From the NCBI GenBank assembly GCA_016789745.1, contig JAEUQF010000227.1:1-64000 (forward strand): DNA of 64,000 nt. Direction: 5' to 3'. The DNA is from Bryobacterales bacterium (GTDB lineage Bacteria > Acidobacteriota > Terriglobia > Bryobacterales > Bryobacteraceae). Position 1 is the first letter of the stretch, and every line of letters starts with the position of its first letter. This document shows, in pieces, positions 53,336 through 64,000 of this stretch. The notes below the pieces were generated by a model. That model saw nothing but the letters and a program-made list of their open reading frames with translations, ran no database searches and was not told the DNA's origin. The translations under genes and the position numbers were made by a program.

Positions 53336-53602
53336 ATGAAGAGAAGCAGCAAGCCGGAGGGTACAGAAGAAGTTGCATCGGAGAAGGCGCCGCAGAGCGG
53401 GCCGGGTGTGGTGCAAAGCGACAGCGAATTACTGGAAGAACTGCTGCAGCGAGTAAAGGAAAAGATCTTATCGGATCGGACGAACTTCTCGGTCGGAGAT
53501 CTAATACGGCTGCTAGAAGCCCGACAGGAGTTACGGACCGATGAAGTACGGGAGATCGTGGTGCGATGGGTAGGCGATTCGAAAGAGGAGTCTGCCGGTT
53601 AG
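53336..53602 (+). CDS. Small phage protein, terminase-small-subunit position
   Basis: An 88-residue protein that lies directly ahead of the terminase and overlaps it by 37 bp. The C-terminal 55 residues look helical (DSELLEELLQRVKEKILSDR, FSVGDLIRLLEARQELRTDE); the N terminus is charged and probably disordered. A small terminase subunit is suggested by position only; no helix-turn-helix is clear. It starts at ATG 53336. Confidence 0.6.
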   Translation: MKRSSKPEGTEEVASEKAPQSGPGVVQSDSELLEELLQRVKEKILSDRTNFSVGDLIRLLEARQELRTDEVREIVVRWVGDSKEESAG

Positions 53603-54870
53603 ACATAGCTTACACACCGCTGCCGTCGCAGAGGGCTTTTCACGAGTCGCGAGCGCGGTTCAAGGGGTTCTCGGGGCCGGTGGGGAGCGGAAAGAGCGCG
53701 GCGTTGTGTCAGGAAGCGCTGCGGATGGCGTTCGTGAATGCGGGACGGACGGGGCTGCTTGGAGCGCCGACGTATCCGATGCTGCGGGACACGACACAGG
53801 CGGCGTTTCTGGAGTTGCTGGAGAGCAACGAAGTTCCGTACGACCTAAACCGGTCGGAGAACATCCTGGTTCTGAAGGACGTGGGATCCAGGATTCTGTT
53901 CCGCTCGCTGGAAGAGTACGAGCGGCTACGAGGGACGAACCTTGCATGGTTCGGGGTGGATGAGTTGACGTATACGCACGAGGAGGCGTGGCTTCGGCTG
54001 GAAAGCCGGTTGCGAGATCCGAAGGCGAAGGAGTTAGGCGGTTTCGCGGTATGGACGCCCAAGGGGTTTGACTGGGTGTACCGCCGGTTCGTCAACCCGG
54101 GGACTACCGGGTACAGCACGGTGATGGCCCGCCCCATGGAGAACAAGTACGTGCTCAGGGCGGCGCCAGATTTTTACGAGCGGCTGAAAGCGAGTTACGA
54201 CGAGAGCTTCTATAAGCAGGAAGTGCTTGGAGAGTATGTGGAGAAGGATCGAGACCAGGTGTACTCGAACTTCGACCAGAGGCGGCACTTGCGGCGGATG
54301 GAGTTTGACCCGTCGTTACCGTTGTTGTGGTCGCTGGACTTCAATGTTGACCCGTTGTGTTCGGTGATTGCGCAGCGTGCGCGGGACGGGATCCGTGTGC
54401 TGGATGAGATTGTGCTAAAGCGGGCCACGACGAAAGATGCGTGCCAGGAACTGCTAACGCGGTACGCACGGCGGCTACAGGCGGTGATCATCTACGGCGA
54501 TGCCAGTGGCTGGCACATGCACACGTCGGGATCGAACGACTACACGGTCATAAAAGAGATGTTTCAGCGGGCGGGGTTCCGCACGGTGGATATCCGTGCG
54601 CCGAGGAGCAATCCGGCGGTAGCGGACCGTGTGGCGGTGGTGAACGCCAAGCTGCTGAACGCATATGGAGACACGGAGTTGTGGGTGGATCCGAGGTGCC
54701 GGGCGTTGATCCAGGACTTTGCGGAGGTTATGTACAAGCCGCGGAGCACGGTCGTGGACAAGGAGCGGGATCTGAACCGGACACATTCGAGCGATGCGCT
54801 TGGGTATCTGATCTGGCAGGAGTACGGAGAGCGGCAGAAGGTTGGAGAGCAAACACGGAGGCTGTTGTAG
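53566..54870 (+). CDS. Phage terminase large subunit
   Basis: A 434-residue DNA-packaging motor. The ATPase half has Walker A GPVGSGKSAALC (residues about 37-48) and Walker B LAWFGVDELTY, with a coupling motif likely in AVWTPKGFDWVYR. The nuclease half carries the acidic residues LDFNVDPLCSV, IIYGDASGWH and a final HSSDALGYLIW, as in the RNaseH-fold nuclease. It cuts and threads DNA into proheads through the portal. The upstream ORF overlaps by 37 bp, and the portal gene follows after 33 bp. Confidence 0.9.
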   Translation: MGRRFERGVCRLDIAYTPLPSQRAFHESRARFKGFSGPVGSGKSAALCQEALRMAFVNAGRTGLLGAPTYPMLRDTTQAAFLELLESNEVPYDLNRSENILVLKDVGSRILFRSLEEYERLRGTNLAWFGVDELTYTHEEAWLRLESRLRDPKAKELGGFAVWTPKGFDWVYRRFVNPGTTGYSTVMARPMENKYVLRAAPDFYERLKASYDESFYKQEVLGEYVEKDRDQVYSNFDQRRHLRRMEFDPSLPLLWSLDFNVDPLCSVIAQRARDGIRVLDEIVLKRATTKDACQELLTRYARRLQAVIIYGDASGWHMHTSGSNDYTVIKEMFQRAGFRTVDIRAPRSNPAVADRVAVVNAKLLNAYGDTELWVDPRCRALIQDFAEVMYKPRSTVVDKERDLNRTHSSDALGYLIWQEYGERQKVGEQTRRLL

Positions 54871-54903
54871 CAGAGGGAGGAGAAGGGAGGCGGAAAGGAA
54901 GCG

Positions 54904-56289
54904 ATGGACATAACGAGAGAACACCCGGAATACCGGGGCTCGCGACGGCTGATGAAGCGCTACTCGGACCTATATGCCGGGGGCGAGCAGCTGAAGAACA
55001 GCGCGCGGGACTACCTGGAGATGCGGCAGAAGGAGCCGTATGACGTCTACACGGAGCGTTTGGCGAGGGTTTACTACGAGAACTACATCGGGTCGATCAT
55101 CGACTGGTACTCGGCGACGTTATTTAAGCGGGAGCCGGTGATCGAGTTCGAGGGAAAGGGGGAGGCCGGGCGGAAGTACTTCGCGGAGTTTCTGGAGGAC
55201 TGCGACCAGCGGGGGACGTCGCTGGCGGCGATGCTGCAGCAGCAGTTCGTATCGGCGCTGGTGAAGGGGAAGAGCTATCTTCTGGTGGACTTTCCGAAGC
55301 CGACGCGGCCGGCATCGACGTGGGCGGAAGAAGAGGAAGCTGGACTGTCGCACGCGTACCTTGTGGATTTCAGCGAGGAGGAACTGATCAACTGGAGCCG
55401 CGACGAACGGGGGCGATTCGACTGGGTAGTGCTGCGGCAGGTCAACCGGAACCGCAGCGCTGTGGAGGAAGAAGGGCCGCGCACGGAGACGACGTACCTG
55501 TACTTTGACCGGACGAGCTACAAGACGTTCGTTCAGGTGGGTGACAAAGGTCCGGCGCTGCTGGTAGATGAAGGCGTGCACGGGCTGGCCGATCTGCAGA
55601 TGGTGCCGTTGTTCGAGTTCAAGGTCAATGAAGGTTTATGGCTGATGAACAAGGCGGCGCTGATTCAGTTGGAGCACTTCAACAAGTCGAACGCGCTGTC
55701 GTGGGCTTTGTCGATGGGGTTGTTCGCGATGCCGGTGGTGTATACAGACCGGCAATGGGAACAGATCGTCGGGGAGAGCTACTACATCCAACTGGCGCCG
55801 AATGACCGCTTCGGGTGGACGGAGCCGGAGGGGAAGGTTTTTCAGATTGCTTCGGAGAATCTGGCGCGGCTGCAGGAGGAGATCTACCGGGTCTGCTATC
55901 TGCTGCACCAAGCGCGAGGGGTTCACAGTAGTGCGCTGAGCCAATCGGGGATGAGTAAGGCACGCGACTTCGCGGTGACGCAGGAAGTACTGCGGTCCTA
56001 CGGAGACCAGGTGAAGGACTTCACGAAGCGGCTGCTGCGAGCGATCGCGGGAGCGCGGAAGGACGATCTACTGATCAACGTCTCGGGGATGGACGATTTC
56101 GACATTGCCGAGTTCACGTCGGATCTGGAGGACGCCGAGCGGTTGCTGGGGATGGGGATGGCGTCGCCAACGCTGCGGGCACACATATATAAGCGGCTGG
56201 CATCGAAGTATCTGTGCGATGTGAGGCAGGAGATCAAGGATCGCATACACAGTGAGATCGACGGCGAATTGTTAGGGAGAAGGGACTGA
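54904..56289 (+). CDS. Phage portal protein
   Basis: A 461-residue protein of the DUF4055-like portal class. It begins with a helical stem (TREHPEYRGSRRLMKRYSDL; NYIGSIIDWYSATLFKREPV), has the wing and clip region (FEGKGEAGRKYFAEFLEDCD; LVKGKSYLLVDFPKP) and the long crown helix (QSGMSKARDFAVTQEVLRSY; KDFTKRLLRAIAGARKDDLL). It should form the dodecameric ring that binds the terminase. Its stop shares one base with the next start. Confidence 0.82.
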   Translation: MDITREHPEYRGSRRLMKRYSDLYAGGEQLKNSARDYLEMRQKEPYDVYTERLARVYYENYIGSIIDWYSATLFKREPVIEFEGKGEAGRKYFAEFLEDCDQRGTSLAAMLQQQFVSALVKGKSYLLVDFPKPTRPASTWAEEEEAGLSHAYLVDFSEEELINWSRDERGRFDWVVLRQVNRNRSAVEEEGPRTETTYLYFDRTSYKTFVQVGDKGPALLVDEGVHGLADLQMVPLFEFKVNEGLWLMNKAALIQLEHFNKSNALSWALSMGLFAMPVVYTDRQWEQIVGESYYIQLAPNDRFGWTEPEGKVFQIASENLARLQEEIYRVCYLLHQARGVHSSALSQSGMSKARDFAVTQEVLRSYGDQVKDFTKRLLRAIAGARKDDLLINVSGMDDFDIAEFTSDLEDAERLLGMGMASPTLRAHIYKRLASKYLCDVRQEIKDRIHSEIDGELLGRRD

Positions 56290-56894
56290 TGGAGACAAAT
56301 ACTGATTTGCACACAGAGCCAACGGAAGGAGGCGGGATGGAGGAGATCCGAACGCTGATCAAGCAGGTCATTCGTGAGTATGACTCTGTGGAGAAAGACA
56401 AGCGGGAGCCGGCCCATCGGGCGGAACTAGCCGAGGAACGGCGGCGTAGAGAGAGTCTGGAGAAGCGGGTGAATGAGCTGGTGGAAGAGAACCAGCGGAG
56501 CCGTGCGATAGCAGAGGAGGCGGAGCGCACCACTGCGATCCGGTCAGAACTGCAGCGGCATGGTGTGACGAAGCTCGACCTTGCGTTCCGGGCCGTGCGG
56601 GACGACGTAAAGCGGACCACGGACGGGAAGCTGATTGCGAGCACGCCGACAGGCGATGTTGTGCAGTTGAGTGAGTTCATCGAAAGTTTCGTGCAGGAGA
56701 ACCCTGAGTTTCTACCGGCACGGCTGTCGGGCGGAGCCGGCGCGACAGGAGGGGCCAAGAGTGGACCGGGAGGCGGCGGTTTTACGGTGGACATTGAAAA
56801 GATCAAGCCGGGGATGGACCGCGCGGAGTTGGAGAAGATCCGGGACGAAGTTGCCCGGGTGGCCCTTCACACATTGGGCGGCGGGAAACGCTAG
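56289..56894 (+). CDS. Phage scaffolding-like protein
   Basis: A 201-residue protein, almost all coiled coil in the first 100 residues (IRTLIKQVIREYDSVEKDKR; REPAHRAELAEERRRRESLE; RVNELVEENQRSRAIAEEAE). A Gly-rich linker (RLSGGAGATGGAKSGPGGGG) separates a C-terminal helix (GMDRAELEKIRDEVARVAL) that could dock on the coat. Position between portal and coat, and the composition, point to a scaffold that is removed during capsid maturation. No protease is seen. Confidence 0.72.
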   Translation: METNTDLHTEPTEGGGMEEIRTLIKQVIREYDSVEKDKREPAHRAELAEERRRRESLEKRVNELVEENQRSRAIAEEAERTTAIRSELQRHGVTKLDLAFRAVRDDVKRTTDGKLIASTPTGDVVQLSEFIESFVQENPEFLPARLSGGAGATGGAKSGPGGGGFTVDIEKIKPGMDRAELEKIRDEVARVALHTLGGGKR

Positions 56895-56959
56895 CCAAGG
56901 CAAAGCAAGCAAGTAACTAAGTAAGCAAGTAGATCCAAGAACGAGGAGACCAACATCAA

Positions 56960-57871
56960 ATGGGAGTCATTACTTCCGCGAATGTAGCGAATGCGATTGT
57001 GAAGCTGGTGGCCGTGGATGCACTGCCGTCGCTGATGGGGAACCTGGTAATGGGGAACCTAGTCAATCGAGACTTTGAACCGACGCTGGCGCAGGCGGGC
57101 GACACTGTCAATGTGCCGATTCCGCCGACGCTGACGGCCAACAACATCGCTGAAGGCGGTTCGGTTCTGGCGCAGAGCCCGAACCTGGGTAATGCGCAGA
57201 TCGTGCTGAACACGCACGCTGAAGCCACGTTCCAGATTCCGGACGTGACGAAGGTTCTGGCGGCGCCGGACCTGCTGAGCCTGTACATGCAACCGGCCGT
57301 GGTTGCTTTGGCGGAGAAGATCGAGTCGGATCTGCTGGCGCTGTACTCGCAGTTCACGGCGAACACGCCGGTGGGCACGGCGGGCACGGCGATCACGGAA
57401 GCCGTGGTGGACTCGGCGGAGACGGCCCTGTTCCAAGCGAAGGTGCCGGCGAGCGCGCCGAAGTACCTGGTAGTGGATGGCAACGCGTACTCGTCGCTGC
57501 GTCAGATTCCGCGGTTCAGCGAATACAGCAGCGCGGGCGACGCTGGTTTGCGGGCGCTGGTGGACGGGTCCGTGGGCAAGATCAAGGACTTCTACGTGTT
57601 CCGTTCGCAGTTTGTGCCCAAGACCGGTAGTTCGCCGGTATCGACGCACAACCTGGCGTTCACGAAGAATGCGATTGGGCTGGTGGTTCGCCGCCTGCCG
57701 CAGCCGCTGCCGGGTACGGGCGCCGTTGCCGAGTACGCGGAGTTGGGCAACTTTGGCATGCGCGTGCTGATGACCTATCAGCCGAACACGCTGTCGCAGC
57801 AGTTCACGGTGGACGTGCTCTACGGCTGCGCGGTGTTGCGCAACAACCACGCTGTGCGAGTGACCAGCTAA
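56960..57871 (+). CDS. Phage major capsid protein, P22-coat-like
   Basis: A 303-residue coat protein. MGVITSANVANAIVKLVAVD, NLVNRDFEPTLAQAGDTVNV and IPPTLTANNIAEGGSV at the start match the P22 coat (gp5-like) family rather than the HK97 type, with no N-terminal scaffold domain. The middle contains VVDGNAYSSLRQIPRFSEYS, and the end ELGNFGMRVLMTYQPNTLSQ. GAGGAG upstream of the ATG gives strong translation, in keeping with its abundance. A 65-base AAG-rich stretch separates it from the scaffold gene, and a group of three hairpins follows the stop. Confidence 0.87.
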   Translation: MGVITSANVANAIVKLVAVDALPSLMGNLVMGNLVNRDFEPTLAQAGDTVNVPIPPTLTANNIAEGGSVLAQSPNLGNAQIVLNTHAEATFQIPDVTKVLAAPDLLSLYMQPAVVALAEKIESDLLALYSQFTANTPVGTAGTAITEAVVDSAETALFQAKVPASAPKYLVVDGNAYSSLRQIPRFSEYSSAGDAGLRALVDGSVGKIKDFYVFRSQFVPKTGSSPVSTHNLAFTKNAIGLVVRRLPQPLPGTGAVAEYAELGNFGMRVLMTYQPNTLSQQFTVDVLYGCAVLRNNHAVRVTS

Positions 57872-57885
57872 CCAGCGGGTGTGGA

Positions 57886-57978
57886 CTGAGGCGGTGGGTC
57901 GCCTCAGGCCCAGGCTGTCCGGAAGGGCAGCCGAGAACGCTAGACGGGCCTTCGGGGGCGGACCCTGGAGGCCCTTTT
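57886..57978 (+). terminator. Three successive hairpins with T-run after the coat gene
   Basis: Hairpin 1: CTGAGGCG-GTGGGT-CGCCTCAG (57886-57907), perfect 8 pairs. Hairpin 2: GGCTGTCC-GGAA-GGGCAGCC (57913-57932), a GNRA loop and one G-T pair. Hairpin 3: GGGCCT, 17-base interior, AGGCCC, then TTTT (57946-57978). The last looks like an intrinsic terminator and would limit readthrough from the coat gene. Confidence 0.65.
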
Positions 57979-57996
57979 CATTTGGAGAGAAGAAGG

Positions 57997-58329
57997 ATGG
58001 AACTGAGGCTGTACTACCAGAAGGTACGGGAAGTGATGGAGTCAATTCCTGGCGAGTTTGCCGTGGTCATCAGCAACGACACGGGCGATGGCGGGCGAGC
58101 GGGCATGCCGGAGGAGGTATCCCGCGCGCTGGCTGGGCGATTGGTTGTGGATGGCAAGGCCCGACTGGCGACGGCGGAGGAGACGCTGGCGTTCCACAAG
58201 GAGAACGAAGACCGGCGTATCGCGCTGGCGCGGGAGAACGCAGCGCATCGCTTGCAGGTGGCGCTGGTTTCGGAGGAAAGCATCGCGGCGCTGGCGCGGG
58301 AACGGGCGAAAGAGAAGAAAACGGAGTAA
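57997..58329 (+). CDS. Small phage protein after coat
   Basis: A 110-residue protein: N-terminal MELRLYYQKVREVMESIPGE with a beta-like half (FAVVISNDTGDGGRAGMPEE, VSRALAGRLVVDGKARLATA), then a long charged helix (LAFHKENEDRRIALARENAA). Family not recognised; the position suggests a head-joining or decoration protein. I use the ATG at 57997 with GAAGG ahead; a TTG at 57982 is also open. Confidence 0.62.
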   Translation: MELRLYYQKVREVMESIPGEFAVVISNDTGDGGRAGMPEEVSRALAGRLVVDGKARLATAEETLAFHKENEDRRIALARENAAHRLQVALVSEESIAALARERAKEKKTE

Positions 58330-58335
58330 CTACAT

Positions 58336-59076
58336 ATGGCGCTGTGGAAAGACGGGAGCAGTCCGACGATCGCAGATTTGCAGAGGTACGAATCGGACAT
58401 ATTGCAGGTAGCGACGGTGGAGGATATCGATCTCAGCAGGAAGCTGGAGATCGCACGCGGGATCGTGAGTTCGGATCTGCGGGACTTCCTACGGCGCCAA
58501 ACGGGAGCAGAGGGCTCGGCACTGGAGGACGTAGTCGTGACCGAGCCCCTGCATCGGTGGGCCGTGATGATGACGCTGCAACTGATTTATCGGGACGCGC
58601 ACTACCAGCAACTGGCGGAGCGATACAAGGGCAAGTGGATGGAGTACAGCGAGCAGGCGAGGTTAACGCGCCGGGAGTACTACGAACACGGGGTTGGGCG
58701 CGTGAGGCGAGTGCTGCCAAGGCCAGCGGCGCCCCTGATTGTGGTTTCCAACGGTGGGCAGATCGCGGCCGGAACCTACTATTACCGTGCTTCTCGGGTG
58801 GCGGGAGGTGTTGAGAGCGAGGCAAGTGAGATAGCCGCGGTGACGGTGACAACGGGGTCCGCGATCCAGGTGCAGTTCGCAGACGAGAATCTGGCCGGCG
58901 ACGGGTGGCACGTTTACGCGGGGCTGTTCGAGGATGAACTGGCGAAACAAAGCGTGCAGGCACTGGCATTTGGGAGTAGCTGGGGACAGACGCAGATACA
59001 GCCCGGGGCGAGGCCTGGCGACGGGCAGCAGCCTGACTTCTATATTCGCCAGCGGAATGTGCTTTGGCGGGGGTGA
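58336..59076 (+). CDS. Head-tail connector-like protein with Fn3-like domain
   Basis: A 246-residue protein in two parts. Residues 1-130 are helical (SDILQVATVEDIDLSRKLEI, RWAVMMTLQLIYRDAHYQQL, ERYKGKWMEYSEQARLTRRE), like a head-tail adaptor. Residues about 135-235 are beta-rich (APLIVVSNGGQIAAGTYYYR, GVESEASEIAAVTVTTGSAI) and look like an Fn3 or Ig-like surface domain, which may bind the capsid outside or a cell surface. It is 6 bp behind the previous gene. Confidence 0.65.
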   Translation: MALWKDGSSPTIADLQRYESDILQVATVEDIDLSRKLEIARGIVSSDLRDFLRRQTGAEGSALEDVVVTEPLHRWAVMMTLQLIYRDAHYQQLAERYKGKWMEYSEQARLTRREYYEHGVGRVRRVLPRPAAPLIVVSNGGQIAAGTYYYRASRVAGGVESEASEIAAVTVTTGSAIQVQFADENLAGDGWHVYAGLFEDELAKQSVQALAFGSSWGQTQIQPGARPGDGQQPDFYIRQRNVLWRG

Positions 59077-59079
59077 CAT

Positions 59080-59562
59080 ATGTCGCAAGTAGCAACGTTG
59101 GTGAGTAATGCGCTGTTGGGCGCTCTGGATGGAGAGAACGGACTGCGAACGTGGCTGGGGGATGCGAGCCGGCTGGGTGAGTTGGCGCGGAATGTGACGG
59201 TGGTCGGGCAGCACATAGACATGGATCTGGCTGACCGGAGTCCGCAGGGTTATCCAGCGGTGTACGTGCATTGTGACCGGGTGACGAATTCGTTACGGGA
59301 GAAATTCCGGTCGTTCGCGGGAACCGCCGAACTTGGAGTGGACGTACGGGCGACGGCGGAGCGCGCTGAGGAGACGACAGATTTACTTCACTACACCGTG
59401 GATGGGCTGATTCGCGTATTGGAGTCCGTTCGTGGTGACTGGGGAGCGGGGATGTACTACGGAGGTGGTTACGAGGTGACGTATCAGGCTTTGAAGAAGG
59501 GCGGGCGGAACTTCGTGAAGACAGCCAAGGTGAAGCTGACGGTGGAAGTGAGCAAGAGCTAA
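59080..59562 (+). CDS. Tail-completion-type phage protein
   Basis: A 160-residue protein with a mixed alpha/beta pattern: RTWLGDASRLGELARNVTVV, HIDMDLADRSPQGYPAVYVH, RSFAGTAELGVDVRATAERA and a final VKLTVEVSKS. Position after the connector and before the tail tube suggests a tail-terminator or completion protein. No specific family is recognised. Confidence 0.6.
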   Translation: MSQVATLVSNALLGALDGENGLRTWLGDASRLGELARNVTVVGQHIDMDLADRSPQGYPAVYVHCDRVTNSLREKFRSFAGTAELGVDVRATAERAEETTDLLHYTVDGLIRVLESVRGDWGAGMYYGGGYEVTYQALKKGGRNFVKTAKVKLTVEVSKS

Positions 59563-59584
59563 GGACGGAGGGCGGGAAGCGATT

Positions 59585-60757
59585 ATGGCTTGTTACATAG
59601 CGTCACGGGAGAACAGATTCTACGTGAATGTGGAGGAGAGCTTTGGGGCAGTGGCCGCGGTGACGGCATCGCACCGGTTTACGGCAAGCGCGATGGAGGT
59701 GAAAGAGGAAGCGCTGTATCCCCAGAGGCGGGACAAGACGGGCACGCGAACGCGAGGACCGGTGATGGGTCCGCTGCGCCGGAAGGTGCAGTTCGCGGTG
59801 AAGAGCTACTTAGTGGGGACGGAGGCGGGGACAGCGCCGAACTACGGCCCGCTGGTTCACTCGGCGATGGGCAAGGAGCCGCTCGTGTCGGCAGGCGGGA
59901 TTGTGGAGTCGGTGCCGGCTTCGAACCGGATCCGGTTTACGACGCCGCACGAGATGGTGGCGGGACAGGGTGTGAGCTTTGGAGGTGAAGTCCGCTTTGT
60001 GGCAGCGGTAGTGGACGAATTCACCGTGGAATTGAATATTCCGTTCACACTCGTGCCAGGACCAGGCGCATTAACCGGACCGACGGTCAGCTACGCGTTG
60101 GGCAATGATCTGAAGAGTCTGAGCCTGTTCGACTACTGGAGCCCGGAGAGCGCCGTGCAGAGAATCGTGAGCGGCGGCGTGGTGAACCGGATGACGATTT
60201 CGGTGAACGGGGATGTTCATGACTTGGAGTTTGCCGGACCCGCGCGAGACGTGATCGACAGTTCGAGTTTCGAAAACGGCGTTGGGGAACTGATGGCCTT
60301 CCCCCTGGAACCTGCGGTGGCGGCGACCTATGAGGCTGTGCCGGTGAGCGGGCACTTAGGGCAGGCGTGGATCGGTGCGGTGCCGTCGCAATTTCTGACT
60401 CTGACGAAGGCGTCTGTGGAATTGGACAACGGCGTGGAGATGAGGAGTTCGGAGTTTGGCAGTTCGCTGCCGCGTTGCGTGGTGCCGGGTGCGCGCGAAG
60501 TAACGTTCGACTGCATGCTGTACGGCCGTGACGACGGTGCAACGAAGGAGATCTATCAGGCGGCCCGGACCCGTTCACCGCTGCAGGTAATGCTGCAACT
60601 TGGACAACAGGGCGGCCAGATGATGGGTGTTTATGTGAAAAGCCTGGTGCCGGAGGTGCCGGAGTTCGTCGACAAGGAGACGCGACTGCAGTGGAAGCTG
60701 AGCGGATGCCTTGCGGAAGGGAGTAGCGATGACGAACTTTACATCGCCTTCGCCTAA
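59585..60757 (+). CDS. Major tail (tube) protein
   Basis: A 390-residue, beta-rich protein: SFGAVAAVTASHRFTASAME, LRRKVQFAVKSYLVGTEAGT, SVNGDVHDLEFAGPARDVID, AREVTFDCMLYGRDDGATKE and RLQWKLSGCLAEGSSDDEL. The final domain resembles phage tail-tube folds, and the place just before the frameshifted chaperone is the usual one for the tube gene. It is longer than most (about 200), so it may carry an extra outer domain. It overlaps the chaperone start by 29 bp. Confidence 0.7.
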   Translation: MACYIASRENRFYVNVEESFGAVAAVTASHRFTASAMEVKEEALYPQRRDKTGTRTRGPVMGPLRRKVQFAVKSYLVGTEAGTAPNYGPLVHSAMGKEPLVSAGGIVESVPASNRIRFTTPHEMVAGQGVSFGGEVRFVAAVVDEFTVELNIPFTLVPGPGALTGPTVSYALGNDLKSLSLFDYWSPESAVQRIVSGGVVNRMTISVNGDVHDLEFAGPARDVIDSSSFENGVGELMAFPLEPAVAATYEAVPVSGHLGQAWIGAVPSQFLTLTKASVELDNGVEMRSSEFGSSLPRCVVPGAREVTFDCMLYGRDDGATKEIYQAARTRSPLQVMLQLGQQGGQMMGVYVKSLVPEVPEFVDKETRLQWKLSGCLAEGSSDDELYIAFA

Positions 60758-61121
60758 GCACTACAGCAGCAGTATCAGGAAAGAGTCGGTGGTGTTGCCG
60801 GGTGTTGCGTACACCATCCGCAGGATGTCGTTTCAAGGCCGGCTGGAATTACTGCGTGAGTTGCGCGACTTGATGACCAAGGCGGAGTTTGCGGCTGCGG
60901 GAAGCAGCGCAACGGATCGTGTGGAGGCGGCACTGCTGGAGGGCGCGATCCGGAAGCGGCAGCTGGAATGGGGCCTGGTGGCAATCGAGGGCCTGGAGAT
61001 CGACGGAGAGCCGGCGACGACAGCGAGGTTGCTGGCAATGGGTCCGGAAGAGTTGACGACGGAGATCCAGGCGAGCATCCAAGGGCAGATGGGTCTAAGC
61101 GAAGAAGAACGAAAAAACTGA
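60729..61121 (+). CDS. Tail assembly chaperone, short (G-type) form
   Basis: A 130-residue protein in zero frame: helical after a short N terminus (RMSFQGRLELLRELRDLMTK, EAALLEGAIRKRQLEWGLVA). It ends in EEERKN-stop. The last two sense codons form A AAA AAC, a canonical -1 slip site, immediately before TGA. In tailed phages, such genes make a short G and a long G-T protein in a fixed ratio, both needed to coat the tape measure during tail assembly. Start is the ATG at 60729 with GGAAGGGAG upstream. Confidence 0.75.
   Translation: MTNFTSPSPKHYSSSIRKESVVLPGVAYTIRRMSFQGRLELLRELRDLMTKAEFAAAGSSATDRVEAALLEGAIRKRQLEWGLVAIEGLEIDGEPATTARLLAMGPEELTTEIQASIQGQMGLSEEERKN
61112..61118 (+). promoter_or_regulatory. 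Slippery heptamer for programmed -1 frameshift
   Basis: A AAA AAC, read in phase (codons CGA AAA AAC) and followed at once by the zero-frame TGA (61119-61121). The -1 frame is then open for 113 codons to 61459. A purine-rich GAAGAAGAAC just upstream could act as a ribosome-binding-like stimulator. No strong stem-loop is seen downstream. Confidence 0.75.
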
Positions 61122-61459
61122 TAGTCGCCTTTCACTTTACCCAAGGGAGCCAAGCCGGGTGGAAGTGCGACGAATGCAGGAAGGCAAAGCTAGAGGCTGG
61201 GCGCGCGTGTGGGTTGTTGACGCCGATGCCGGCTGAGAGTGAGCGTCCGGTGTGGGTGAGGAAGGGAGTGATGACGACCCGCTGCCCTAAATCCATTATC
61301 CGGGCGGAGAGTACAGGGTGGCTCGATCTGTACGCGGCGAATCAGGCGGCGGGAGTGCGGTTGCATGCGATGGAACTGGACGCCCGGGCGGTTGAAGCGC
61401 TGCTGGTGTTGGAGGGCGAGCATCGAAAGGAACGCGAGGAGGGCGTAGCCAATGCTTGA
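61118..61459 (+). CDS. Tail assembly chaperone, T extension read after -1 frameshift
   Basis: An open frame of 113 codons joined to the short chaperone by the slip site; the joined product would be about 243 residues. It contains WKCDECRKAKLEAGRACG and TTRCPKSI, a set of Cys that could form a small zinc site, and ends in a helix (EALLVLEGEHRKEREEG). There is no sensible start codon near its beginning. Its stop overlaps the start of the next gene by 8 bp. Confidence 0.7.
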   Translation: MIVAFHFTQGSQAGWKCDECRKAKLEAGRACGLLTPMPAESERPVWVRKGVMTTRCPKSIIRAESTGWLDLYAANQAAGVRLHAMELDARAVEALLVLEGEHRKEREEGVANA

Positions 61460-61991
61460 GTTGTTGATCTCAGAACTGCTGCGGGGACAGGGTGCCGCCA
61501 CGTCTCGTGATGCACAGAGCCTGTTGCGTTTGCTTGGTCCTCTGGCAAGCGCCCTGCTGCCGACGGGGGAACCAGGGTTGAGCACGGGGCTTTCGTCGAG
61601 CGGGCGGCCAGCGAGCGTATTGCAGATGGTGAGCGGGGCCGGAGGTTTTCTGGGGCTGCCGAGCCTGGTGCAGGCGCTATTTGGCCGACGGCAGCAAGTG
61701 CCGGTGGCCGCACCACCGCTGCGACTACCTCGATACGAGGCTCCGGCAGCCTACAACGAGGAGTACGGCGTGGCATCCCGAACGGGTACTCAGGTGGTCG
61801 CGCGGCAGGACGAGTTTGGGCGTAGCGAGGTGCGGAGGCGACAAGAGGGAGGCTCGGAAGTGAGCGTGACCACGACGGCCAGTCAGACGCTGGATGGCCG
61901 GGTGTTGCTGCAGTACAGCGACGAGATCGCGCAGGCGGTTCGACAGGCGCTGCTGTATTCGCATCCGTTAAGCGAGTTGATCTCGGAGTGA
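61452..61991 (+). CDS. Short protein in the tape-measure position
   Basis: A 179-residue protein. The N-terminal half has hydrophobic helical stretches (MLELLISELLRGQGAATSRD; SLLRLLGPLASALLP; GFLGLPSLVQALFG); the rest is polar with a Gln/Arg-rich part and a terminal helix (DEIAQAVRQALLYSHPLSEL). The tape measure normally follows the chaperone; here this is the only candidate and it is very short, closer to the roughly 220-residue g11 of the Rhodobacter capsulatus gene transfer agent than to phages. It is coupled to the chaperone stop. Confidence 0.55.
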   Translation: MLELLISELLRGQGAATSRDAQSLLRLLGPLASALLPTGEPGLSTGLSSSGRPASVLQMVSGAGGFLGLPSLVQALFGRRQQVPVAAPPLRLPRYEAPAAYNEEYGVASRTGTQVVARQDEFGRSEVRRRQEGGSEVSVTTTASQTLDGRVLLQYSDEIAQAVRQALLYSHPLSELISE

Positions 61992-61994
61992 GCG

Positions 61995-62348
61995 ATGGCA
62001 CTATTTCCGAAGTTGAAGACGGGAGCCGCGACGCAGTATCCGGCAACTGCGTCGCTGGAAAGCAGTACGCATGTGACGCGATTTGTGGACGGGACGCAAC
62101 AGAGGTTTCGGCGAAGGGGCGAGATGGTTAGGCGATGGGATCTTGATCTGTCGCTACTGGATGAAGCCGAAACGAGAGCGCTGGAACAGTTTTTCGTAAG
62201 TCAGCGAGGGGCGGCCGGCACATTCTCGTTTGCGGATCCGCTGACCGGAGAGATTTACGAGAGCTGCAGGTTCGAACAGGACACGGCGGAGTTCGAAGCG
62301 AGTGAACTTTTTCAAAACAACGGAAGACTGCGGATAAGGACGGTGTAG
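61995..62348 (+). CDS. Distal-tail-like protein (DUF2460-like)
   Basis: A 117-residue protein: FPKLKTGAATQYPATASLES, MVRRWDLDLSLLDEAETRAL, EQFFVSQRGAAGTFSFADPL. The 'LxxFFxxxRGxxxxFxFxDP' element resembles the DUF2460 proteins (gene transfer agent gp12) that form the distal tail hub ring. The next gene is a paralogue with an inserted domain. It starts 3 bp after the tape-measure candidate. Confidence 0.7.
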   Translation: MALFPKLKTGAATQYPATASLESSTHVTRFVDGTQQRFRRRGEMVRRWDLDLSLLDEAETRALEQFFVSQRGAAGTFSFADPLTGEIYESCRFEQDTAEFEASELFQNNGRLRIRTV

Positions 62349-62352
62349 GGCA

Positions 62353-63141
62353 ATGCTAGCGTTTCCACAGTTTGGGGATAAGGCGGTGATCCAGTATCCG
62401 TACCGCTGGCGTCAGAAGTTTCGGACACGACTGGCAGATAACGACTGGGGCAGTTTGCCCCGGCAGACGGATGGCGGATTTGAGGAGCGACGATTCAGTT
62501 GTGTACTGCGGGGGCTCAGCGATGGGGAGCGGGTCTCGATTCAGAATCTGTTCGTAGCAACAGCAGGGGGATACCGTGCGTTCACGTTTCTGAGTCCGCA
62601 CGAGAACCTGCTGGCCGATAGCGAGGCGCTGGCTACGGGCTCGTGGATTAAGGATCCGGGGCTTGTACTGGTGAGTGGTTTTGCTGATCCGCTTGGTGGG
62701 TTGGGGGCGACGAGGGTGTCGAATCCCGCGGGTATGGCACGACGATTTCGGCAGGTAATTGAGGCGCCGAGTGAGTACCGCTACTGCGCTTCCTTCTGGG
62801 GCCGTTCCGCGAGCTCCAGCAACATCACCTTTCAGGGTGGAGCGGCAACCGCACCGAGCGAGCGAGTCTTGCGCTTCGACGGCACATGGAGACGGTTTGT
62901 TGTGACCGTTCAAAGCAGTGAGGTGGTGGGACAGACCGCTTTTGGCCTGGTTCTTCCGGCGGTGACAGAGGTGGAAGTGTTTGGGTGGCAAGTGGAGGCG
63001 AGCGGCGCGGCAACGGAATACAAGAAGACGGTGGGCCCAGGGGGAGTGATTGCAAATTGCAGGTTCGCGGATGACCGGCTGGAGTGGACGTCGGAGTTTC
63101 CGGGCCAGCACACGGTGAGGATTAATCTAGCGGCGACGTAA
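62353..63141 (+). CDS. Distal-tail paralogue with inserted carbohydrate-binding-like domain
   Basis: A 262-residue protein. Residues about 1-85 align with the preceding gene (FPQFGDKAVIQYP; ERRFSCVLRGLSDGERVSIQ; NLFVATAGGYRAFTFLSP), and the last 28 residues (NCRFADDRLEWTSEFPGQH) match its C terminus (SCRFEQDTAEFEASEL). Between them lies a domain of about 145 residues with a jelly-roll pattern (LADSEALATGSWIKDPGLVL; CASFWGRSASSSNITFQGGA; RWRF-like DGTWRRFVVTVQSSEV), as in carbohydrate-binding and LamG-like modules. It probably decorates the tail tip and may bind the host surface. Confidence 0.65.
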   Translation: MLAFPQFGDKAVIQYPYRWRQKFRTRLADNDWGSLPRQTDGGFEERRFSCVLRGLSDGERVSIQNLFVATAGGYRAFTFLSPHENLLADSEALATGSWIKDPGLVLVSGFADPLGGLGATRVSNPAGMARRFRQVIEAPSEYRYCASFWGRSASSSNITFQGGAATAPSERVLRFDGTWRRFVVTVQSSEVVGQTAFGLVLPAVTEVEVFGWQVEASGAATEYKKTVGPGGVIANCRFADDRLEWTSEFPGQHTVRINLAAT

Positions 63142-63148
63142 GGATGCT

Positions 63149-64000
63149 ATGGCGACGATCAATGTACTGAAAGAACAAGAGGCAACGGACACTCCGATTG
63201 CCCTTTTTGAGATCGGGCTGGCCGGAGGCGGGGTTCTCCGGCTGAGCACTCATGCGCTAACGCATGAAGGAGTGTCGTATTCGGCGCGTATCGTGCGTCA
63301 TGAACCGTTCGAGCTTAAGATCGGCGGGGACGGCAGCGACAGCAACGGCCGGCTGAGCCTGACGCTTGCGAATCCGGATTCGTACTTTTCGGGCATTGAT
63401 CCAGTGGACTGGCGGGGCGCATCGGTTACGGCGCGGTTCTGTTTTTTCGACCTGACAAGCGGAGTGGCGACCAGCGAGACTCGTGTTGTGTTTCGCGGGG
63501 TTTGCGGCGGCGCTGAGGAGATTACGGAGGAGGCGATCCGCCTGATTTTTCACAACCGCCTGGGGCTGCAGCGGGTATGGCTGCCGACGGTTCGGTTGCA
63601 AAGAACCTGTCCATGGCTTTTCCCGGCTGACAATGACCAACGCCAGGAGGCAGTTGCCGGTGGTAGCGAGGGGACTTACTCCGCGTTTTATCGGTGTGGC
63701 TACTCGGCAGGTGAGGTGAACGGAGCAGGGAATCTGAATGGGGGGCAGCCATATACCAGTTGCGGCTACACGAAGGAGGATTGCGCTGCCCGGGGCATGC
63801 TTGATTCCGATAGCAGCAGTAGCCCGACTGCGCGGTTCGGAGGATTCCCGATTCTGCCTGAGCCGGGAGCGGGGCGTGTAGAATTGGCGCCGCTCATCTA
63901 TGGGACAGGCTGGTGTGATGCACCCGTGGTGAATGTCTGGCGTGAGAGCGATCGAGTTCGCGCCGAGGCCATCGTCGCAATGGGCCGGATTGAGGGCGTG
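63149..64000 (+). CDS. Tail-tip/baseplate protein (DUF2163/gp13-like), 3' end outside window
   Basis: 284 codons, open to the window's end. The N-terminal half (ATDTPIALFEIGLAGGGVLR, KIGGDGSDSNGRLSLTLANP) is a hub-like beta domain. The second half has Cys-rich segments RTCPWLFPADN, FYRCGYSAG, TSCGYTKEDCAARGML, which match the four-Cys patterns of the lambda gpL / BR0599 / gene transfer agent gp13 group, known in lambda to hold an Fe-S cluster. ATG at 63149. In related modules the next genes encode a peptidase and the tail fibre. Confidence 0.75.
   Translation, partial: MATINVLKEQEATDTPIALFEIGLAGGGVLRLSTHALTHEGVSYSARIVRHEPFELKIGGDGSDSNGRLSLTLANPDSYFSGIDPVDWRGASVTARFCFFDLTSGVATSETRVVFRGVCGGAEEITEEAIRLIFHNRLGLQRVWLPTVRLQRTCPWLFPADNDQRQEAVAGGSEGTYSAFYRCGYSAGEVNGAGNLNGGQPYTSCGYTKEDCAARGMLDSDSSSSPTARFGGFPILPEPGAGRVELAPLIYGTGWCDAPVVNVWRESDRVRAEAIVAMGRIEGV

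Follow-up and report, generated by a model that had tools for sequence, protein, structure and literature searches.

Gene organization of the locus

The window, by which we mean the whole 64,000-nucleotide stretch of Bryobacterales DNA that was analysed, ends within a compact cluster of head and tail genes. The cluster measures about 16 kb (53.3–69.7 kb) and lies between the host genes ilvB and mutM. The features on which the analysis rests are as follows, with positions counted from the first letter of the window.

53336..64000, forward strand: part of the cluster lying in the window; it runs on to contig position 69712 (L005:9712), after which comes host mutM
from 53566, forward strand: terL, preceded by a small ORF
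from 54904, forward strand: portal
from 56289, forward strand: scaffold
56960..57871, forward strand: MCP (coat), of the P22 coat family PF11651, not the HK97 gp5 family
59585..60757, forward strand: tail tube (phrog_290, E 1.8e-7), overlapping the start of the chaperone gene
60729..61121, forward strand: zero-frame ORF from the ATG at 60729, short product of 130 aa, putative analogue of lambda gpG and HK97 gp13
61112..61118, forward strand: slippery heptamer A AAA AAC
61119..61121, forward strand: zero-frame stop TGA, adjoining the heptamer
61119..61123, forward strand: spacer of 5 nt between heptamer and hairpin
61119..61459, forward strand: -1 frame extension of 113 codons and a stop, encoding a T-like domain
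61124..61134, forward strand: 5' arm of the hairpin (lower part GUCGC, 61124–61128; upper part, 61129–61134)
61160..61171, forward strand: 3' arm of the hairpin (upper part UGGAAG, 61160–61165; one bulged base; lower part GCGAC, 61167–61171)
61452..61991, forward strand: tape-measure-position ORF of 179 aa, so called by position only; it starts before the -1 frame has ended
62353..63141, forward strand: orf262, spike-fibre-like (NCBIfam NF048003, GTA_spike_fiber, E 2.8e-14)

The gene order is thus terminase, portal, scaffold, coat, connectors, tail tube, the chaperone pair and the tape-measure-position ORF, followed by DUF2460, the spike-fibre protein, a 1272-aa hub, a 913-aa tail protein and then mutM; orf262 accordingly sits among the distal tail genes. 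The tape-measure-position ORF matched no family, and tblastn detected homologues of it in 57 of 103 related loci, with rapid divergence.

The initial annotation of this DNA, made from the letters alone, had proposed a programmed -1 frameshift in the gene for a tail chaperone, placed between the tail tube and a tape-measure candidate, and its description of the site agrees with the frames as we read them. Near position 61100 the zero frame reads ...AGC GAA GAA GAA CGA AAA AAC TGA TAG TCG CC..., so that the heptamer is in phase and its last base adjoins the stop codon. The -1 frame reads KKLIVAFHFTQGSQAGWKCDECRKAKLEAGRACG... and stays open, as had been stated, until its stop at 61457–61459; the 130 aa of the zero frame and the 113 codons of the -1 frame would together give a 243-aa fusion.

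Conservation of the heptamer among relatives

Relatives of the locus were fetched with the upstream tail-tube protein, which gave 103 loci, all of the family Bryobacteraceae. A homologue of the zero-frame ORF was found by tblastn in 100 of them, and the junction of the two frames was present in 98 loci, representing 96 genomes (two loci were fetched twice). The heptamer occurs at every one of these 98 junctions, as AAAAAAC in 97 and as AAAAAAT in the other. Two of the five remaining loci (L056 and L106) are on contigs that end before the site, and three (L060, L129 and L072) are losses. In L072 the -1 domain is kept and the heptamer is replaced by AGAGAAAC, so that the heptamer is retained in 98 of the 99 loci with a -1 domain. 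Among the other losses, L060 (genome G371) has a chaperone without the -1 domain, and L129 (genome G476) has no chaperone gene between the tail tube and the tape-measure-position ORF; both keep the rest of the cluster.

An independent set of loci, on IMG/VR contigs located with a degenerate protein pattern, has AAAAAAC in all 73 distinct cases. The same heptamer is present in L261, in relatives from the same order and the same class (L256–L258) and in L259, which is a second, divergent copy in its genome; L262 and L263 have AAAAAAT. The heptamer is therefore conserved where both frames are kept, which was the comparison that the initial annotation had put forward as a check on its reading. The position of the zero-frame stop is nearly as constant: it directly follows the heptamer in 87 of the 98 loci, is delayed by a single codon in 10, and comes 33 codons after that point in one.

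Retention of the heptamer exceeds what codon usage would give by chance. The Lys codon at the site is AAA in 98/98 loci, whereas the adjacent tail-tube gene uses AAA for 23% of its Lys. An A also closes the preceding codon in 98/98, whatever the amino acid (CGA in 47, AGA in 40, others in the rest). Arg codons in that position end in A in 87/87 cases, compared with 17% in the tail-tube gene. Elsewhere in these regions AAAAAAC was found at 48 other sites in 1.82 Mb, or about 0.026 per kb.

A conserved hairpin downstream of the slip site

A bulged hairpin of 10–11 bp begins 5 nt 3' of the heptamer. RNAalifold, applied to 84 distinct in-register sequences, returned this hairpin (-9.9, 10 pairs), and all ten counted pairs can form in 66 of the 84 sequences and nine in a further 17. 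The outermost pair, 61124–61171, covaries, being GC in 49 loci, CG in 12, AU in four and GU in seven; it forms in 72 of 84 loci, compared with at most 61 in 5000 shuffles. An eleventh pair is formed between a C of codon 5, where this codon is GCC, and base 61165, which is G in 53 of the 54 sequences with GCC, compared with 10 of the 30 with other codons (Fisher P = 5e-11, a value that ignores the relatedness of the genomes). Because GCC and GCA both encode Ala, this alternation is accounted for by RNA structure rather than by the protein. The covariation falls at first and third codon positions, and several loci that carry loop insertions still have the lower stem. Shuffling of synonymous codons showed a modest gain in hairpin energy (mean z -0.73), the effect being modest because conserved residues already dictate part of the stem.

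We also considered a Shine–Dalgarno-like stimulator 5' of the slip site, the purine-rich GAGGAAGAA being found there in many loci; it was set aside because it is missing from the window itself.

Products of the two frames

An AF2 model of the zero-frame product (pLDDT 92) had as its first neighbour by VIA-align the HK97 tail assembly chaperone, 2ob9, at a twilight-range Z of 5.8 where the tool's reliable level is 8, with an rmsd of 4.2 over 93 of 107 residues and 8% identity; 2ob9 was absent from Foldseek's own list for this product. Modest as the match is, its family is the one to be expected at this position. Neither half of the fusion has a credible match in Pfam or NCBIfam, and PHROG gave only stray weak matches, among them two chaperone families at E 0.08–0.1, each through single members.

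The -1 domain was also modelled with confidence (pLDDT 91). Neither PDB nor BFVD offered a usable match to its structure, although an unlisted match does not mean a new fold, and its sequence has no match in PDB. Counted from 61112, the residues K1, K2, L3, A6, W17, C19, C22, R23, R31, C33, V47, W48, C58 and P59 are invariant, the four cysteines having been counted in 52 sequences. The initial annotation had remarked on CxxC-like cysteines in this part of the protein as unusual for the family; the comparison goes further than that remark, in that C19, C22, C33 and C58 never vary. To judge from this sequence pattern, the four cysteines probably form a zinc site.

Both frames are under purifying selection. 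In comparisons of close genome pairs the zero frame has a median dN/dS of 0.20 and the -1 frame one of 0.24, from which it follows that both are translated and selected.

Expression of the -1 frame

How the -1 domain comes to be translated was judged against three explanations other than ribosomal frameshifting. It could be a separate protein with its own start inside the chaperone gene, and on this point the initial annotation, which had denied the -1 frame any start of its own, is literally wrong for the window: the frame is open 5'-ward to 60859 and contains an ATG at 60968, 48 codons 5' of the slip site. Many loci, moreover, have a GTG eight codons upstream. In substance the statement stands by comparison, however, since the window ATG is not conserved among relatives and 29 of the 98 loci offer no ATG, GTG or TTG anywhere in the -1 frame from its preceding stop, which in these startless loci is often only one to four codons before the slip site, up to the conserved Trp. 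The same absence is seen in 30 of the 73 IMG/VR loci. In the 29 startless loci frameshifting is the only ordinary route to the -1 domain, and an internal start would, in addition, leave both the invariance of the heptamer and the covarying hairpin unexplained; we consider it very improbable. Slippage of RNA polymerase on the A run, instead of slippage of the ribosome, would account for a homopolymer at the junction, which reaches 10 As in L085. The run is nevertheless exactly six in 92 of the 98 loci and seven in five, and runs of six or seven As are short for polymerase slippage. The phase of the run and the C or T that follows it are also kept, as is the covarying hairpin at the spacing expected for ribosomes, and transcriptional slippage seems to us scarcely credible. 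Finally, the window comes from a draft genome of 499 contigs, in which a misassembly might be suspected, or else a pseudogene in decay whose frame was shifted by an ordinary mutation; conservation already refutes this explanation, since about 96 independent genomes share the identical arrangement, as do 73 metagenome contigs, and dN/dS is much lower than 1.

Programmed -1 ribosomal frameshifting, as originally proposed, is thus supported by the conservation of the heptamer, the hairpin, the selection on both frames and the likeness of the predicted fold, and we conclude that the locus very probably encodes a tail assembly chaperone pair of the lambda G/GT type. Most ribosomes would read CGA AAA AAC TGA and stop, releasing the chaperone of 130 aa. 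The bulged hairpin would hold up a minority, which would slip as the tandem Lys and Asn tRNAs re-pair from A AAA AAC to AAA AAA, and would continue into the -1 frame to give the fusion, whose C-terminal domain has the four cysteines and probably binds zinc. If the parallel with lambda holds, the short form may coat the tape-measure protein, and the fusion may act as the initiator, its C-terminal domain recruiting the tail-tube protein. The slippage event itself, its efficiency and the chaperone function are inferred.

Comparison with known tail chaperone frameshifts

The resemblance to lambda gpG/gpGT lies in the position of the gene, which the tail-tube gene precedes and the tape-measure position follows, in the production of a short and a -1-extended product, and in a heptamer of the XXXYYYZ form that is in phase and close to where the first frame ends. 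The lambda heptamer is G_GGA_AAG. The present site differs in having A_AAA_AAC with an adjoining stop and a strong covarying hairpin, and its -1 domain differs in having the four cysteines and no detectable sequence kinship to known families. The mechanism is hence a classic one in an unusual variant. In lambda it is the short product that binds to the tape measure, and recruitment of the tail tube falls to the -1-extended product (PMC5009743).

The choice of heptamer is of interest in itself. A_AAA_AAC is a weak slip site in Escherichia coli by comparison with A_AAA_AAG, yet it is used for the tail chaperone g-t frameshift of the haloarchaeal tailed virus HCTV-2 (PMC5009743); the likeness of that archaeal virus to our locus is one of heptamer. 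Taken together, these observations suggest that the conserved hairpin may be what makes the weak A_AAA_AAC site work. A lack of queuosine, as a simple cause of a slippery AAC codon, was discarded, a Tgt gene being present in the genome of the window and in its genus.

Distribution and inheritance of the cluster

The tail-tube protein matched 169 of 200 genomes of the family, with one match each in most, and gave only three matches in 297 genomes across the phylum. Neither the viral contigs nor 50,697 phage records yielded a free-phage relative of it. In a sample of the class, the -1 domain was present in 56 genomes of the window's family, in one of the eight listed of the order's next family and in two others. 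The gene order is constant in 103/103 loci and dN/dS is low throughout the cluster; the coat protein is about 70–88% identical across the family, compared with about 45% for the tail proteins. Three flanking chromosomal sites recur, of which the ilvB site is common to at least four genera. No integrase, repressor, phage replication or lysogeny gene was recognised in the window's cluster. What the initial annotation had missed is this setting, which looks to be not an ordinary phage but a family-wide, usually single-copy and syntenic cluster of 16 kb.

At least 584 IMG/VR contigs classed as viral encode the -1 domain. Many of those among L136–L215 are about 16.0–16.9 kb long, close to the length of the cluster, and these are probably clusters inherited by their hosts that have been catalogued as viral. 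In two genomes, G394 and G327, there is an additional, divergent cluster (L259 and L260). In L259 the coat is 64% identical, AAAAAAC is kept and an 8-bp hairpin is possible, whereas the junction of L260 lacks an A6 heptamer and reads gggggaatcc instead; these copies could be genuine related prophages or ancient duplicates.

The distances between clusters are correlated with those between the rpoB genes of their hosts (Mantel r 0.445, compared with no more than 0.33 in 2000 shuffles), and the two trees share seven of 23 splits, compared with at most three by chance. Several supported rpoB splits are not recovered in the cluster tree, however, and the deep branches disagree, so that vertical inheritance of the cluster is supported only in part.

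A possible gene transfer agent

Published criteria for gene transfer agents (GTAs) are a genome endogenized in full, inheritance that is mainly vertical with diversification alongside the hosts, and particles that carry random host DNA, in amounts smaller than the cluster, into other cells (PMC9662315). As the first of these asks, the present cluster lies within assembled host contigs, between ilvB and mutM. It resembles the Rhodobacter capsulatus agent, RcGTA (g1–g15), in being a compact head–tail cluster inherited by a bacterial clade and in having a spike-fibre protein, orf262, that matches the GTA_spike_fiber family. The two are also alike in a short tape measure, RcGTA g11 having about 216 residues and the ORF in the corresponding position here 179 aa, and this similarity of size suggests a very short tail. 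It is unlike RcGTA in the phylum of the host and in the coat protein, which matches the P22-like PF11651. The chaperone functions of RcGTA are carried by two genes, g10 and g10.5 (PMC11409702), and no frameshift is mentioned in the RcGTA literature cited here. Prophages have been predicted in bacteria of this group, Bryobacter and Solibacter among them (PMC5900883). We found no paper on an acidobacterial GTA in the open-access literature, subscription papers and preprints being outside the scope of the search.

The main competitor is that the cluster represents a normal or remnant prophage family which spreads by infection. The hundreds of IMG/VR contigs classed as viral, the extra divergent copies in some genomes and the conflict of the deep cluster branches with rpoB would all be expected of such a family. 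Against this, the cluster is usually present in a single copy in 169 of 200 genomes and matches no phage record, its 16-kb gene order is constant and its chromosomal sites are recurrent, with the ilvB site shared by several genera. Nor does the window's copy contain a recognisable phage replication, repressor or integrase gene, and the agreement with rpoB, both in the Mantel correlation and in the shared splits, exceeds anything seen by chance. An infectious prophage family is accordingly possible, if somewhat doubtful, and the cluster appears most likely to be a GTA-like prophage that the Bryobacteraceae have domesticated and pass on vertically. The fuller proposal is that it constitutes an undescribed Bryobacteraceae GTA, derived from a prophage head–tail cluster domesticated once and retained almost universally in this major family of soil bacteria, with a very short tail, a chaperone ratio set by the frameshift and a zinc-binding T domain; to this we would give an even chance.

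Frameshifting in tail chaperone genes is itself classic, and what stands out here is its retention over a whole family in a cluster that behaves like host genes. It provides a natural case in which a supposedly weak bacterial Lys–Asn slip site is maintained together with a conserved stimulator, and the combination of hairpin and A_AAA_AAC offers a sequence signature with which more such clusters could be found. If the GTA reading is true, hundreds of 'viral' contigs from soil metagenomes would be misclassified GTA clusters. Whether GTAs also occur beyond the lineages already recognised, soil Acidobacteriota being one example, becomes a directly testable question. The family-wide retention of the frameshift, and with it selection on a translational ratio, would imply that a tail is still being built, and that in the Bryobacteraceae a particle is still made and is useful.
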